A DNA stretch of 40,247 bases, taken from contig JXQG01000010.1 in NCBI GenBank assembly GCA_001007665.1, positions 1-40,247 on the forward strand, read 5' to 3'. Each line of letters starts with the position of its first letter. The stretch's first letter is position 1. Position numbers and translations under genes: made by a program. Origin of the DNA: Candidatus Synechococcus spongiarum SP3 (GTDB taxonomy: Bacteria; Cyanobacteriota; Cyanobacteriia; PCC-6307; Cyanobiaceae). This document shows positions 24,640 through 36,090 of the stretch, piece after piece. The notes beneath the pieces are model-generated. The model had not been told where the DNA came from, made no database searches, and saw only the letters and a list, made by a program, of their open reading frames with translations.

Positions 24640-25101
24640 TTAGGACTGCTTGGCCAAGAGGAGTTGATACACCTTGTCCATGCGGACGCTCAGGCCATCC
24701 ATGCGGGTAGCGAGATTGTCGATGCGGGCGCTGAGGTCGGCGCCAAGGGTGTCCATGCGGGCCGCGAGATTGTCGATGCGGGTGCTGAGGTTGGCGCCAA
24801 GGGTGTCCATGCGGGCGCTGATCTCAGCGCCGAGGGTGTCCATGCGGGTGCCGAGATCGTCGATACGGGTGCTCATACCGTCCATGCGGATGCCGAGATC
24901 GTCGATGCGGACGTTCATGCCGTAGATCCCGAGAGCGATGGACAGCAATAAACCAAGGATGGTCACCGCCCCGCCAATCGCTGCCACCACGACGGCAGGC
25001 TCTAGCCATGGGCGGCGCCCCGGATGATCGCTGGCTGGCACAGTTGTGGTTGTTGCCTGGGGCTGCATGTTGGGGTTGGCAGGTGGATTGTTGGAGGTCA
25101 T
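24640..25101 (-). CDS. Single-TM protein with long tandem-repeat coiled coil
   Basis: Pro/Thr-rich N-terminus, TM VVVAAIGGAVTILGLLLSIALGIYGM, then repeats R(I/M)D(D/N/T)L(G/A). Confidence 0.7.
   Translation of the reverse strand: MTSNNPPANPNMQPQATTTTVPASDHPGRRPWLEPAVVVAAIGGAVTILGLLLSIALGIYGMNVRIDDLGIRMDGMSTRIDDLGTRMDTLGAEISARMDTLGANLSTRIDNLAARMDTLGADLSARIDNLATRMDGLSVRMDKVYQLLLAKQS
24680..24920. repeat. Tandem DNA repeats encoding the RIDNLAARMDTLGADLSA-type coiled coil
   Basis: Recurring gtccatgcggg.../gagattgtcgatgcggg.../ggcgccaagggt units. Confidence 0.8.
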
Positions 25102-29118: not shown

Positions 29119-30491
29119 GGCAGCAGGGCCGCGTCTTTCCGGGCAAAGGGCTGCCCACGGAGCTCTTCGGCTGGGGTCCAGCACAGCCACGGGGCGTGGA
29201 GACGCTGTTGCTGGACCAGGTGCTGCACCATGGCGGCTGACGGGGACAACCGCAAGGCTTCTCCTGTCACCAGCTTGTGGGCCGTCAGTCGCCCCAGGAG
29301 GCGGGTAGTATGCACCGCAAGGGTAGCCTGGGCCAGGGCCACAGGACCGGCGGGGGCCAGGCTGAGACCTGCCGTGAACGGCGCTGCCGCCAGCAGCAGG
29401 TGTTTTACAAGACCCAAAGCCCCCTGCAAGCCCAACTGGGCGCCACCCACCCACAGTAGATTGGCGCCCAGTTGTCGCAGCAGGGCCTGCCGCTGGGGAC
29501 CACCCATGGGAAGGGGGACACCATACAGATCGGCCAGTTGCACAATCAAGCCCGTATCGGCTGTGGCGGTTCCCGCCAGATCCACCAGCATGACCGGATT
29601 CATGGCCAGGCCTGCTGCCTTGGCGGCGGCATAGCGGCCAATCAACTGCTGGGCCCGGGCGCGGCGCTGCTGGAGGCGGCACCGCATCAGCAGCCGCTGG
29701 AAGCGGCCCACGGCTTGCAGGCTGTTGAGGGCCAGGAGGCGGGCGCCGTCGGACTGCCACAGATGCAGCAACGCCTCCTGGAGCGGTTGCACCTGGGGTG
29801 GCGCCGCTTCGCTGCGGATCCTGCCGTCGGGGAGTTGTTGCGGTTGACGGGGCGCTGCGGCAATCACCAAGGGAGCGGTCCGGATCACCCCGTCCCCCAG
29901 CAACTGCCGCACCCGACCACGGATGGCGGCCACCAACTGGCGGCGTTCCGCTACAGGCCAGGTGTCGGCCCGATTCAGCACCAGGAACACGGGTTTTCCA
30001 CAGCTGCGCAGCTCCGTTAACGCCGTGGCCTCCGGGGCAGAGATGTCCCCGCCGAGCACCAGCAGCACCAGATCGGCCCCCATGGCCAAACGTCGGGCCA
30101 GACGCCCTTGGGCTGCCGCCTGGATCTCGTCCAACCCCGGGGTGTCCACAAGGTCCACAGCCTGCAGGCCGGGGATGGGGGCAGGGGGCACCCACACGGC
30201 CTGTTGCTGCTGGCGCGTGCAGCCATGGGCCACGTCCACCGCAAAGCATGGCGAGGGCAGCAGGGCATTGAGCACACTGGATTTGCCCACCCCCACCCGA
30301 CCGAACACCACCAGACGGGGGCGACGCCGGGCCAGGCGTTGCAGTTGGTGATCCACCGCTCGCAGGTGGGGTCCCAGGCGGGTTTGCTCCCGTGGGGAGA
30401 GGGTCAGCCGCCGCCGCCAGTGCTCCAGCAGGGCCAGCACCCGGTCCGCCCCGGCGCCACCAGCGTCCGCCACGGTCATGGCCATGGTCAC
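29115..30491 (-). CDS. GTP-binding protein (Era/DUF697-like)
   Basis: VVFGRVGVGKSSVLNALLP, DLVDTPGLDE, LVLNRAD; 4-bp overlaps with both neighbours suggest an operon. Confidence 0.85.
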   Translation of the reverse strand: MTMAMTVADAGGAGADRVLALLEHWRRRLTLSPREQTRLGPHLRAVDHQLQRLARRRPRLVVFGRVGVGKSSVLNALLPSPCFAVDVAHGCTRQQQQAVWVPPAPIPGLQAVDLVDTPGLDEIQAAAQGRLARRLAMGADLVLLVLGGDISAPEATALTELRSCGKPVFLVLNRADTWPVAERRQLVAAIRGRVRQLLGDGVIRTAPLVIAAAPRQPQQLPDGRIRSEAAPPQVQPLQEALLHLWQSDGARLLALNSLQAVGRFQRLLMRCRLQQRRARAQQLIGRYAAAKAAGLAMNPVMLVDLAGTATADTGLIVQLADLYGVPLPMGGPQRQALLRQLGANLLWVGGAQLGLQGALGLVKHLLLAAAPFTAGLSLAPAGPVALAQATLAVHTTRLLGRLTAHKLVTGEALRLSPSAAMVQHLVQQQRLHAPWLCWTPAEELRGQPFARKDAALLP

Positions 30492-31498
30492 CGGGGCCGG
30501 GATTGGGGGAGGGGGCGCCAGCCAGCCAGCCAGGACAGGACCGCATCGGCGCCAATCACGCCGGCAAATCCGCCAAACTCGTCCACCACCACCCGTACCC
30601 GGTTGCTGTGGTGACGGAAGTCCATCAACAGTTGATCAGCGCGGATCATTTCCGGGACAAACGCCACAGGCTCGCTGAGGTCCGCCAGGGAGCGCTCCCC
30701 ATGGCCCTGCACCAGCGCAGCCAACAACGCCTCCCGGCTGGCCACCCCCAGCACCTGGTCCACCGCTTCCCCCAGAATCACCCACCAGGGGTCGTTGCGC
30801 TCCAGGAGGAGGGCTTCCACGTGGGCCAACCGCTCCGAACCCGACAGGGTGGGGGCCGCCACCCGGGGCATCATCAACTCACTGGCCCGGAGATCGTTGA
30901 GCTGAAACACCTTGCCGATCATGGCCGCCTCGTCGGCTTCAATGCGGCCCTGCTGGTGACCCAGGCGGGTCAGCAGGCGGATTTCCGCCTCGCCGGTGAC
31001 GTGGGTGCTCTGGGCCGTCAGGGCCGGCACCAGACGCTCCAGAACGAACACCAGCGGCAGCAGCAGCCGGGTCAACTGCAGCAGGACGGGGGCCACCACC
31101 AGGGCCACCTGCACGTTGAAGCGGGCTCCCAGGGCCTTGGGCAGGATTTCTCCCACCACAATCACCAACAACGTGAACAGTGTGGAAAAGACAGCCAGCC
31201 ACTGGTTCGGCAAAGCCAGTTGCTCCACAATCACCCAGCCGGCAAAGCTCCCCAGCATGATGCTGCCAAAGATATTGAACATGTTGTTCATCACCACCAC
31301 CACCGCCAGCGTCCGCCCCAGTTGAAGCCGCAGGCGTTTCAGGCTGTTGGCTCCAGGGACGCCACGGCGGCAGAGGTCCTGGACCTGGAGGGTGGTGGTG
31401 GTCATAATGGCTGCTTCGCTGCCGGAGCAGAAGGCAGACCCCAGCAGGAGCACAACCGCCATCAGGAGCAGTCCGCTCAGGGCGTCCACCGTCGCCAC
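30488..31498 (-). CDS. CNNM/CorC-type transporter (DUF21 plus CBS pair)
   Basis: LLLGSAFCSGSEAAIMTTTTLQVQDL...EILPKALGARF...; start approximate (31489-31498). Confidence 0.88.
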   Translation of the reverse strand: MATVDALSGLLLMAVVLLLGSAFCSGSEAAIMTTTTLQVQDLCRRGVPGANSLKRLRLQLGRTLAVVVVMNNMFNIFGSIMLGSFAGWVIVEQLALPNQWLAVFSTLFTLLVIVVGEILPKALGARFNVQVALVVAPVLLQLTRLLLPLVFVLERLVPALTAQSTHVTGEAEIRLLTRLGHQQGRIEADEAAMIGKVFQLNDLRASELMMPRVAAPTLSGSERLAHVEALLLERNDPWWVILGEAVDQVLGVASREALLAALVQGHGERSLADLSEPVAFVPEMIRADQLLMDFRHHSNRVRVVVDEFGGFAGVIGADAVLSWLAGWRPLPQSRPR

Positions 31499-31580
31499 CC
31501 CGAGCTGCCTATCCCCTCTTCCGTTGTCGCCGCAGATGAGTCGGGTTTGGCCACGCCGCACCTGATACACACTTTTATTT

Positions 31581-31670
31581 AACCGTCTCCCTCCCCACCT
31601 GCACGCCGTGAACTCTCCCTTGGACCATTCATCCATGCTCAACAGCGCCAGCGTCTCCTGGTCAGCCTGG
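31581..31670 (+). repeat. Degenerate copy of the pepP 5' end
   Basis: aaccgtctccctccccacctgcacgccgtgaactctcccttgg...gccagcgtctcctggtcagcctgg matches 32096-32186 with scattered differences. Confidence 0.88.
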
Positions 31671-31678
31671 TAGAATTG

Positions 31679-32089
31679 CTATTGGCGGGGAGCAAGGTGT
31701 TGCTCGGGGGATGGTCTCACTGGAATCAACCGGTTCCCTGATTCAGCTCGCTGGACCATGCGATCACTCGCACTCAGGCACTCATGGGTGAGCAAGTTAC
31801 GAAAGTCGATGATCCGGCGCCCTTCCGGGATGGCCGCAAACAGCCGAAGATCTCGCCGGGCAATCACTTTCAGAGCTTCGCCAATCAGGTGGATGTCGCT
31901 CTCGCCAGGGCGATAGTCGGACCGCACCACGGAGCCGAAGGCATGCATGTGGGCCACCGGATGGCGGCGGCCGGCAGCGGTAATGGCCTCATGGGACCGC
32001 ACCCCTGGCTGGGTGATGAAGGATTTCCGGGGTGGGGACGAACGTAGCCTGGTGCTCATCGCTAATGCCTGGAGCGGCAACCTGTTCAA
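31679..32089 (-). pseudogene. MntA-like nucleotidyltransferase / HepT-like HEPN chimeric remnant
   Basis: MHAFGSVVRSDYRPGESDI (NTase GS...SD) joined in frame to HLIGEALKVIARRD...IPEGRRIIDFRNLLTHE (HepT core with RNLLTH). Confidence 0.72.
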
Positions 32090-32092
32090 TCA

Positions 32093-33460
32093 TTGAACCG
32101 TTTCCCTCCCCATCTGCACGCCGTGAACTCCCCCTTGGCCCCCTCCACCCATGCCCAACGACGCCAGCGTCTCCTGGCCAGCCTGGAGGATGCAGCGGTG
32201 GTGCTGCCCGCTGCCCACCTGGTGATCCACCACGCCGACGTTCACCACCGCTTCCGACAAGACAGCGATTTCTTCTATCTCTGCGGCCTGGACGAGGCCA
32301 ATGCCGTGGCGGTGCTCCGTGGCTACGGCTCCGGCGGCGCTCGAGATCCTCGTTTCGTGTTGTTTGTGGAGCCACGGGACCCCACTGCCGAAGTGTGGAA
32401 CGGCCAGCGCTGGGGTGTGGAAGGGGCCATGGAGCACTTCGGCGCCGAGGCCGCCCATCCCCTGGGGGAGCTTCCCGAACGCCTGGACAGCTATCTCCAC
32501 GGCGCTCGACGCATCGGCTTCCGTGTTGGCCACCATCCCCACGTGGAGCCGCTGGTGTTGAGGGCCTGGGCCCAACAACTGGAGCGGGGCCAGCGGCACG
32601 GGGGGCACAGCGCCAGCCTCTTTGACGTGAGCACCATCCTCCATGCCATGCGTCTGCGCAAGGAGCCCGGAGAGTTGGAGCGTATGAGGGAAGCCGCCCG
32701 CATCAGTTGCGCCGCCCATGAACAGGCCCGGCAGGCCGTCCGGGCCGGCATGGGGGAATACCAGATCGAGGCCCTGCTGGAGGGCCACTTCCGCAACGCC
32801 GGGGCCCGTCAGCCCGCCTACCCCTCCATCGTGGCGGGGGGAGACAACGCCTGCATCCTCCACTACACCAATAACCAGGACCCGCTGCGGGACGGGGATC
32901 TACTGCTCATTGATGCCGGTTGCAGCCTGACGGACTACTACAACGCCGACATCACCCGCACCTTCCCCATCAACGGCCAATTCAGCGGCCAGCAGCGGGA
33001 TCTCTACGAACTGGTGCTCACCGCCCAGCGCCAGGCCATCGCCGCCGTGCAGCCGGGAAGCAGTTCCGCCAAGGTGCATAACGCTGCAGTGGAGGTGCTG
33101 GTGGACGGGCTGCTGGAGCTGGGTCTTCTACAAGGGGACCGGGACGCCGTCGTCACCAGCCATGGCTACCGCCACCTCTATCCCCACCGCACCGGCCACT
33201 GGCTGGGGCTGGACGTCCACGACGTGGGGGCATCCCGCCTGGGGGATCACCACACCGCCCTGGAACCCGGCATGGTGCTCACCGTGGAACCGGGCCTCTA
33301 CCTCAGCAACCGGCTACCCGTCCCGGAGGGGCAACCCCCCATCCCCGACCACTGGCAAGGGATCGGTATCCGCATCGAAGATGACGTGGCGGTGACTGCA
33401 ACCGGCCATGAGGTGCTGACGGCGGGGGCGTTGAAGGGTGTTCGGGATATGGAGGGGTGA
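32093..33460 (+). CDS. pepP: Aminopeptidase P family (Xaa-Pro aminopeptidase)
   Basis: FFYLCGLDEANAVAVL; LLIDAGCSLTDYYNADITRTFPINGQFSGQQRDLYE; GLDVHDVG; VEPGLYL; start could be ATG 32093 or GTG 32123. Confidence 0.95.
   Translation: MNRFPPHLHAVNSPLAPSTHAQRRQRLLASLEDAAVVLPAAHLVIHHADVHHRFRQDSDFFYLCGLDEANAVAVLRGYGSGGARDPRFVLFVEPRDPTAEVWNGQRWGVEGAMEHFGAEAAHPLGELPERLDSYLHGARRIGFRVGHHPHVEPLVLRAWAQQLERGQRHGGHSASLFDVSTILHAMRLRKEPGELERMREAARISCAAHEQARQAVRAGMGEYQIEALLEGHFRNAGARQPAYPSIVAGGDNACILHYTNNQDPLRDGDLLLIDAGCSLTDYYNADITRTFPINGQFSGQQRDLYELVLTAQRQAIAAVQPGSSSAKVHNAAVEVLVDGLLELGLLQGDRDAVVTSHGYRHLYPHRTGHWLGLDVHDVGASRLGDHHTALEPGMVLTVEPGLYLSNRLPVPEGQPPIPDHWQGIGIRIEDDVAVTATGHEVLTAGALKGVRDMEG
32096..32186 (+). 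repeat. Native pepP 5' end, second copy of the repeat flanking the HepT/MntA remnant
   Basis: See 31581-31670. Confidence 0.88.
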
Positions 33461-33516: not shown

Positions 33517-33954
33517 ATGGCATCCGCCATGGGCGAGCAGCACAGGAGGCCTGCGACGACGCGGGAGCAGCTTCGGCGCTCGGTTGCTGTATGTCCAGGT
33601 GAGGTAGTGCTCCGGCGTGACTTGCGCACTCTGGGCAGTACGTCCCAGGTGAGCCGCGGCTTGAGGCAACTGGTGGAGGATGGCAAGCTGGTGCGCATCG
33701 GCGTGGGAGTCTACGCCAAGGCAACACCATCCCGCCTCTCGGGTCAGCCTGCGCCAAGACAAACCCTTGAAGTTCTGGCTGCTGAAACGTTCGCTCGCCT
33801 CGGCATTGCCTGGCAGCAGGGTAAAGCGCAGCGGCTCTACAACGCCGGACTCACAACCCAAGTGCCTTGGCGGACCACCTTCGACACGAGCCCTCGCCGC
33901 ATCACAAGACGGTTGCAAGTAGGTAAGGGTGTTGTGGAGTATGAAAGGGGATAA
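33517..33954 (+). CDS. DUF6088 family protein (AbiEi-antitoxin-like winged helix)
   Basis: VVLRRDLRTLGSTSQVSRGLRQLVEDGKLVRIGVGVYAKA. Confidence 0.75.
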   Translation: MASAMGEQHRRPATTREQLRRSVAVCPGEVVLRRDLRTLGSTSQVSRGLRQLVEDGKLVRIGVGVYAKATPSRLSGQPAPRQTLEVLAAETFARLGIAWQQGKAQRLYNAGLTTQVPWRTTFDTSPRRITRRLQVGKGVVEYERG

Positions 33955-33957
33955 GCA

Positions 33958-36090
33958 ATGGCGAGGCTGACAGAGAAGGAGCAGCAGGAAGTCATGCGCT
34001 TCATTGAGGCGGGTAAGCCCCCGCCTGACAAATACCGCTTCCTGTTGTTTGACGACAAGCGGGAGGTCGAGTTGGTCTGGAACGGCAAGACCAACGAGGT
34101 GACAAATGTAGTGCTGCCTTTCCAAACGATTGAGCAGGTGGACGAGCCACGCGCCGAGAAGCCAGAGGACACGGCGGCGCAACAAGATCTATTTGCCTTA
34201 GATAGCCGTGGCCGCCAGCTTCAGGGCTGGACCAACAAGCTGATATGGGGTGATAACAAGCTCATCCTATCATCCCTGAAGAACGGACCTCTCCGCGAAG
34301 AGATTGAGCGCCAAGGGGGTGTAAAGCTCATATATATCGATCCTCCATTTGATGTTGGTGCAGATTTCTCAATTGAGATTGAGATTGGTGACGAAATCTT
34401 CACCAAGAAGCGAAATATCTTAGAGGAAATTGCCTATCGGGATACATGGGGACAGGGAGTAGATTCATTCATTACAATGATTTACGAGCGCCTCTCTATT
34501 ATGCGTGATCTGTTGGCAGATGACGGAAGCATTTATGTACATTGTGATTACCGTGTAAATGCTATAGTTAGATTGGCAATGGATGATATATTTGGCAAAG
34601 AACGTTTCATTAATCAAATTGAGTGGGCTTATAAGACTGGAGGAATTCCAGAAAGATTCGGCTTTTCCAAAAAACATCACCATATTCTTTTCTACTCCCG
34701 TGGCGAGAATCCGGTCTTTAATCAACTTCGTCAGAAGTCTTATGTGCCAACACTTCCAGAACCACACACTTCGTCGGGGCAGCGCCTTGGCGTGAGACGT
34801 GATAAGTTTTGTGAACTATGTGTAAATGGAAGTCCGGGGCAGAAATATCGAATGGTGATAGCTAGAGACATTTGGGATAATATTTCCTCCATTTTCCGAA
34901 ATGATCCACAAATCACAGGATATAACACTCAAAAACCTGAAGAGCTATTAAATCGTATAATAGCCGCTTCATCAAACGAGGGTGATCTTGTAGCAGATTT
35001 CTTTGTAGGCTCTGGCACTACATCAGCCGTGGCCGAAAAACTTGGACGTAAATGGATTGTTGCTGATTTAGGAAAATTTGCTATTCATACTACTCGTAAG
35101 CGAATGATAGGAGTACAGCGCGAGCTCAAGAGCACAGGCAGAAACTATCGTGCATTCGAAATCCTCAACCTCGGAAAGTATGAGCGCCAGCACTATGTCG
35201 GAGTAAATCCCAATCTACGTGAAGACCAACGTCAACAGTAGCTCGAGGCCCGAGAGCAAGCATTCTTAGACCTCATTCTGAGTGCCTACCGCGCCGAGAA
35301 GACCGATGGGTTTGCCAGCTTTCATGGCAAGAAGGCTGGCCGGCTAGTGGCAATTGGTCCAGTCAACATGCCGGTCTCACGACTGTTCATCGAAGAAATT
35401 ATCCGCGAGTGCCGCAAGAAGCGTGTCACCAAGGTGGATGTCCTTGGTTTCGAGTTCGAGATGGGTCTGTTCCCGAACATACTCGATGAGGCCCGCGAAA
35501 ATGGTATTGACGTTGCCCCAAAATACATCCCCCGCGATGTCTTCGACAAGCGGGCCGTAGAGCGCAACCAAGTTGTTTTCCACGATGTTGCTTTCATCGA
35601 GGTACGCCCACACTTCAAAGACAATGCCGTGGCTGTCCAATTGACGGATTTCTCGGTTTTCTACTCACAGGATTCTGTCACCCATGCCGAAGCGACTCTG
35701 AATAATAATAGAAGCAAAATTGTTGTTGAGAACGGTCAAATCATCAAGATGAGAAAGGGAAGGGATGGATCCTGCTACACCGAACAACTGACCAAAACCT
35801 GGAAAGACTGGATTGACTATTGGTCGGTGGACTCTAACTTTGAAAGCAAGCGTGAAATCGTCCGTGTCCAGAACCCCAACACCGGGAATTGGGAAGAGCA
35901 ATGGACAGGCGATTACATCTTCGAGAACGAATGGCAGTCGTTCCGCACGAGGAATGACCGATCACTTGAATTGATGAGTGTCTATCATGAATGTGTGCCA
36001 GGACAGCGCAAGATTGCCGTCAAGGTTGTGGACATCTTCGGGAATGACACCATGACCATCGTTGACCTGAATGTAGGGGGTAAGAACTGA
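33958..36090 (+). pseudogene. mod: Type III R-M modification methyltransferase (Mod), one frame interrupted by TAG at 35239-35241
   Basis: LIYIDPPFDVGADFS...GSIYVHCDYRVNAIVRLAMDDIFG...ADFFVGSGTTSAVAEKLGRKWIVADLG; ORFs 33958-35241 and 35347-36090 share a frame and the intervening codons read LEAREQAFLDLILSAYRAEKTDGFASFHGKKAGRLVAIGPVN. Confidence 0.88.

Follow-up and report, generated by a model that had tools for sequence, protein, structure and literature searches.

Insertions with long target duplications were described for restriction-modification genes, first in a Helicobacter pylori genome comparison (Nobusato, Uchiyama, Ohashi and Kobayashi, 2000, Gene 259:99-108, as presented in PMC1643837 and PMC3874152), with a published duplication of about 100 bp (PMC3874152; PMC1643837), and are also treated in PMC3031569. 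Homology-facilitated illegitimate recombination (de Vries and Wackernagel, 2002; Prudhomme, 2002; both as cited in PMC5361080) is a known process of naturally transformable bacteria, in which remnants of gene ends are left behind (PMC5361080, PMC3240628). Among the open-access papers searched, we found nothing on flanking duplications around MntA-HepT, a toxin-antitoxin system. How small toxin-antitoxin cassettes lacking a transposase move is an open question, which we address here with a locus of Candidatus Synechococcus spongiarum SP3, in contig JXQG01000010.1 (GCA_001007665.1; 40,247 nucleotides, hereafter the window). The locus is an old insertion footprint.

The duplicated pepP start and its counterpart in relatives

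The intact pepP gene of the window (32123..33460, + strand) codes for an M24 aminopeptidase P of 445 aa (Pfam AMP_N 1.5e-33, Peptidase_M24 5.8e-67), whose protein identity to its relatives in the genus is 84-93%. The left neighbour of the insertion is a CNNM-domain gene (30488..31492, - strand; Pfam CNNM 7e-38), and this flank of the site is conserved among the nine relatives. The best local alignment pairs positions 31577-31670 with 32092-32186, with identity in 82 of 95 columns, 12 mismatches and a single gap of one base; its score of 67 compares with a maximum of 19 among 500 mononucleotide shuffles. This bears out the imperfect duplication of ~90 bp of the pepP 5' end, with about a dozen differences and an indel, that was described in the first-pass annotation, whose coordinates hold even though the repeat begins four bases further left. 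The right copy (32092..32186, + strand) comprises 31 bp of upstream sequence and the first 21 codons of the intact gene, including the GTG at 32123 that starts the 445-aa PepP. The left copy (31577..31670, + strand) is dead: as also reported in that annotation, it would start GTG AAC TCT CCC TTG (from 31608) but is frameshifted, with a 1-base deletion, and stops at TAG 31671-31673. The two copies directly abut a 421-bp insert, one on each side. At the right junction, a perfect short palindrome (GTTCAAT-C-ATTGAAC, 32084-32098) overlaps the last base of the insert's TPM piece, described below, and the beginning of the right pepP copy, either by chance or perhaps as a trace of the joining step.

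We compared ten species of the genus, namely the window strain and nine relatives, these being Candidatus Synechococcus spongiarum and other Synechococcus or Prochlorococcaceae genome bins. The CNNM-pepP junction is single-copy and without the insert in all nine relatives, each from a species of the genus other than the window's own, and on a single contig of every one of them the CNNM and pepP halves of the query share about 95 bp. The duplication therefore arrived with the insertion, or after it, in the SP3 lineage, which upholds the earlier proposal that it is the footprint of a cassette insertion. Two pepP copies without a cassette, the arrangement that would have indicated an older duplication unrelated to insertion, occur in none of the nine relatives.

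Directly 3' of pepP (33517-35241) there are an AbiEi-type gene (PADLOC AbiEi 3.1e-43, Pfam DUF6088) and a gene for an N6/N4 DNA methyltransferase. In the relative G004, pepP is followed by a similar AbiEi-like gene and then by different genes and a hepT remnant; because of this difference in gene content, the region 3' of pepP resembles a variable spot for defence genes. Self-comparison of the window also revealed a cluster of short direct repeats at 24676-24913 (70 bp at 86%, 87 bp from start to start).

Composition and decay of the insert

Four pieces make up the insert. The first (31671..31752, - strand) contains the 3' flank and 3' part of hepT, being 83% identical over 65 bp to locus G004:C68 and 93% over 43 bp to the 3' end of hepT from G008 and G003. 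It is followed by an inner piece of hepT, the HEPN toxin gene (31754..31889, - strand; 89% to G004:C43 and 87% to the intact hepT of G008 and G003), and by a piece of mntA, the nucleotidyltransferase antitoxin gene (31886..31991, - strand; 95% to mntA from G004:C68 and 88% to the intact mntA of G008). The last piece (31995..32089) comes from inside a TPM-domain gene and lies in sense orientation on the + strand; over 90 bp it is 84% identical to the intact TPM gene that the strain itself carries at G000:C14, and that gene has a Pfam TPM_phosphatase match. Intact mntA-hepT pairs of the same kind occur in G008 and G003, with NTP_transf_2 and HepT-like Pfam matches above cut-off, and their MntA protein matches the PADLOC candidate PDC-S09. 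Neither a transposase or integrase gene, nor an IS end, nor an inverted repeat joining the two ends was found in the insert, in agreement with the earlier observation that no transposon is visible; the duplication, at 95 bp, is not a short target duplication. Promoter, terminator and Rfam scans around the insert returned no matches.

The fused pieces are crossed by a chimeric open frame of 136 aa (31679..32089, - strand, from the ORF list), to which the TPM piece contributes simply because it happens to be open in antisense. The product of this frame matches NTP_transf_2 (E 0.0035) and HepT-like (E 0.18), both under the Pfam curated cut-offs, and the parentage of the chimera is clearer from DNA comparison than from protein domains. 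The remaining residues match positions 10-48 of 103 in MntA and 41-95 of 118 in HepT. With both genes truncated and fused, this copy is not a working MntA-HepT pair, and the 136-aa open frame is a by-product.

At locus G004:C68, a decaying mntA-hepT pair separates a TPM gene from its neighbour, with an order and orientation that match those of the insert, and the equivalent place is empty in G008 and in the window strain, G000. This shared arrangement suggests that the insert most likely descends from such a TPM/MntA-HepT neighbourhood and would later have lost about 58, 300 and 420 bp, since alignments indicate that these lengths are missing, respectively, on the left side of the inner hepT piece, between the mntA and hepT pieces, and at the TPM piece as compared with the G004:C68 arrangement. 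The mntA piece is 95% identical to G004:C68 and the TPM piece only 80% to the same locus, so different pieces of the insert may date from separate joining events. Between the TPM piece and the strain's own gene there are 16 differences in 95 positions, 13 falling in nonsynonymous codons, which indicates that the piece decayed freely, without constraint, and the extent of this decay about equals the divergence between the two pepP copies.

Repeat brackets around other toxin-antitoxin cassettes

The search proposed earlier, for duplicated gene ends flanking other toxin-antitoxin cassettes, did reveal such cases. Self-comparison of ten MntA-HepT loci of the genus revealed five that are bracketed by direct repeats, corresponding to three independent insertions. 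Besides the pepP 5' end in the window, the bracketing sequences are the 3' part of rluD, in G008 and G003, and the 3' end of a gene for a 1467-aa methyltransferase-like protein, in G000:C51 and G005:C40. Sixty further loci of the MntA-HepT family, with flanks of up to 10 kb, yielded six more brackets, in which the repeats correspond to a tRNA-like 3' end (L193), the 5' ends of two homologous-looking genes of 1.19 kaa (L199 and L200), the 5' end of an Rpn-like gene (L207), the 5' end of ureA (L212) and a hypC/nifJ junction (L245), with gene names read from the protein sequences without a family search. The MntA-HepT brackets are thus mostly ends of neighbouring genes. An early count had given 4 of 27 family loci, excluding the clipped locus L137.

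Background rates were obtained from sampled stretches and matched neighbourhoods. Direct repeats bracket 11 of the 70 MntA-HepT loci and 23 of 2850 matched pseudo-cassettes (0.8%; Fisher p 1.2e-10), or 8 of 67 loci when the window is left out and shared insertions are counted once (p 2.6e-7). These p values are optimistic, because the pseudo-cassettes share neighbourhoods and are not independent, and a rate ratio of 15-20 between MntA-HepT loci and pseudo-cassettes is the safer statement. Among control loci, none of 28 with VapC was bracketed, as opposed to 8 of 30 with ParE, at least two of which involve paralogous genes (L311 and L326); the gene-end brackets of the ParE set include an mfd-like 3' end (L315) and an oxygenase-like 3' end (L320; 65 bp, 98%). 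The footprint is therefore not a property of MntA-HepT alone, and we withdrew the notion, raised by the VapC result, that the pattern is special to this family, which does not differ from VapC and ParE pooled (p 1.0). Brackets at 7 of 30 HepT loci sampled across the class were not used as evidence; those of L301 and L306 are tandem mntA paralogs. The background sample also contained another repeat-bracketed toxin-like gene, a Fic-like gene (499 aa) between two direct repeats of 271 bp, 98% identical, in G009:C4 (L118:8028-10248).

The rluD bracket bears on movement between strains. The mntA-hepT pair and the second rluD piece are 99% identical between G008 and G003, and G003 has an intact rluD of its own elsewhere, on a different contig; identity between the intact rluD genes of the two strains is only 86% across the full query match and 93% within the 372-bp repeat. 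The two rluD copies of G008 are both in frame and differ at 27 bases, 15 of them in synonymous codons. In G003:C38 (L103:1604-3241), the mntA-hepT and rluD pieces lie away from the intact rluD and near IS transposase-like fragments. From these identities, capture from another strain is a live alternative for the rluD bracket, and hence more than one route may produce such brackets.

Origin of the duplication and comparison with known systems

When the 12 differences in the repeat core were polarised, eight were derived on the left copy and four on the right, the pattern expected of two copies of the resident gene that diverged where they lie. The left and right copies group together, but with a bootstrap of only 53, and among the nine relatives no sampled lineage is closer to the left copy than the right copy is. 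The earlier claim of a diverged strain as the source of the flanking pepP sequence is consequently unsupported. We infer that both copies derive from the resident pepP, and a single old insertion that copied resident sequence would fit the divergence of both the pepP copies and the TPM piece, although a target duplication cannot be shown directly with copies that are only 86% identical.

We consider it probable that an MntA-HepT cassette with part of a TPM gene was inserted here with a target duplication of ~95 bp and was then eroded in place. In an ancestor of SP3, the cassette, carried on a short DNA together with part of the TPM-domain gene, would have inserted at the 5' end of pepP, duplicating about 95 bp of the target, that is, 31 bp of upstream sequence plus 21 codons. 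The right copy would still have yielded an intact pepP and the left one, beside the CNNM gene, would have died. Deletions of about 58, 300 and 420 bp, in an order that we infer, would have shrunk the cassette to the chimeric open frame, and the pepP copies would have diverged by mutation. The long duplication itself may have been produced by template switching, by repair of a widely staggered break or by joining with homology at one end.

It seems unlikely, albeit less so than any other rival, that the locus arose by homology-facilitated illegitimate recombination, in which DNA from a diverged strain would have paired at pepP and its other end would have been joined illegitimately, leaving one foreign copy. 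The rluD case resembles such a transfer of a cassette with a gene piece, given the 99% identity of the shared segment and the much more different rluD genes of the two strains, and the proportion of synonymous differences between the G008 copies also speaks for this route. At pepP, however, no other sampled lineage is closer to either copy than expected, and the excess of derived changes on the left copy is that of decay in place; a donor from an unsampled sister lineage may be an alternative origin for one of the copies. What is upheld of the earlier proposal of this process is a transposon-free insertion; its diverged donor is unproven, and a long target duplication explains the anatomy without one.

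A tandem duplication of pepP and a downstream MntA-HepT cassette, followed by deletion of most of the first pepP, is clearly less probable. The hepT remnant of G004, which lies ~3 kb beyond pepP on its downstream side and has the same relative orientation, is indeed the best match (89%) to the hepT piece of the window; nevertheless, this scheme needs two rearrangements and does not account for the TPM piece immediately ahead of the second copy, and the window carries other genes downstream of pepP. An assembly or binning artefact joining pieces of different strains is most improbable, even if the genome is a draft of 117 contigs and most relatives are metagenome assemblies, because the flanks run on unbroken into CNNM and pepP and enclose four pieces, each diverged from the rest of the genome, of which one shows unconstrained decay where misjoined strains would give intact, constrained pieces, and because the same anatomy is seen in independent assemblies.

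Beyond this locus, we propose only tentatively, and with considerable doubt, that MntA-HepT and ParE cassettes spread in picocyanobacteria without a recombinase, duplicating the end of a neighbouring gene, and that addiction protects the insert from loss by recombination. If so, the duplicated gene end would let the host gene survive. With footprints at about one sixth of the MntA-HepT cassettes and at less than 1% of matched positions, the pattern is a simple finder of insertion events, which lets insertions be ordered in time and the genes at their landing sites be named. It also extends a footprint of restriction-modification genes, which are likewise addiction modules, to toxin-antitoxin genes, and makes testable the idea that addiction stabilises repeat-flanked inserts.

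Homology-facilitated illegitimate recombination shares with the pepP locus the acquisition of DNA beside a homologous stretch, the lack of transposon ends and the remnants of gene ends, but it needs an incoming homologous anchor, and no donor lineage for either pepP copy was found among the nine relatives. With respect to described MntA-HepT (MNT-HEPN) systems, the coding pieces of the insert are 87-95% identical in DNA to mntA and hepT from close relatives, whereas the copy in the window is truncated and fused. Insertion with long target duplication has in common with our case a gene cassette without a transposase, an empty site in relatives, a direct target duplication of about 100 bp and of variable length, and a cargo of the addiction type; it differs in that the cargo here is MntA-HepT, broken, and in cyanobacteria, and in that the copies are 14% diverged. 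The pepP locus has the known anatomy of such insertions, here with an MntA-HepT toxin-antitoxin cargo.
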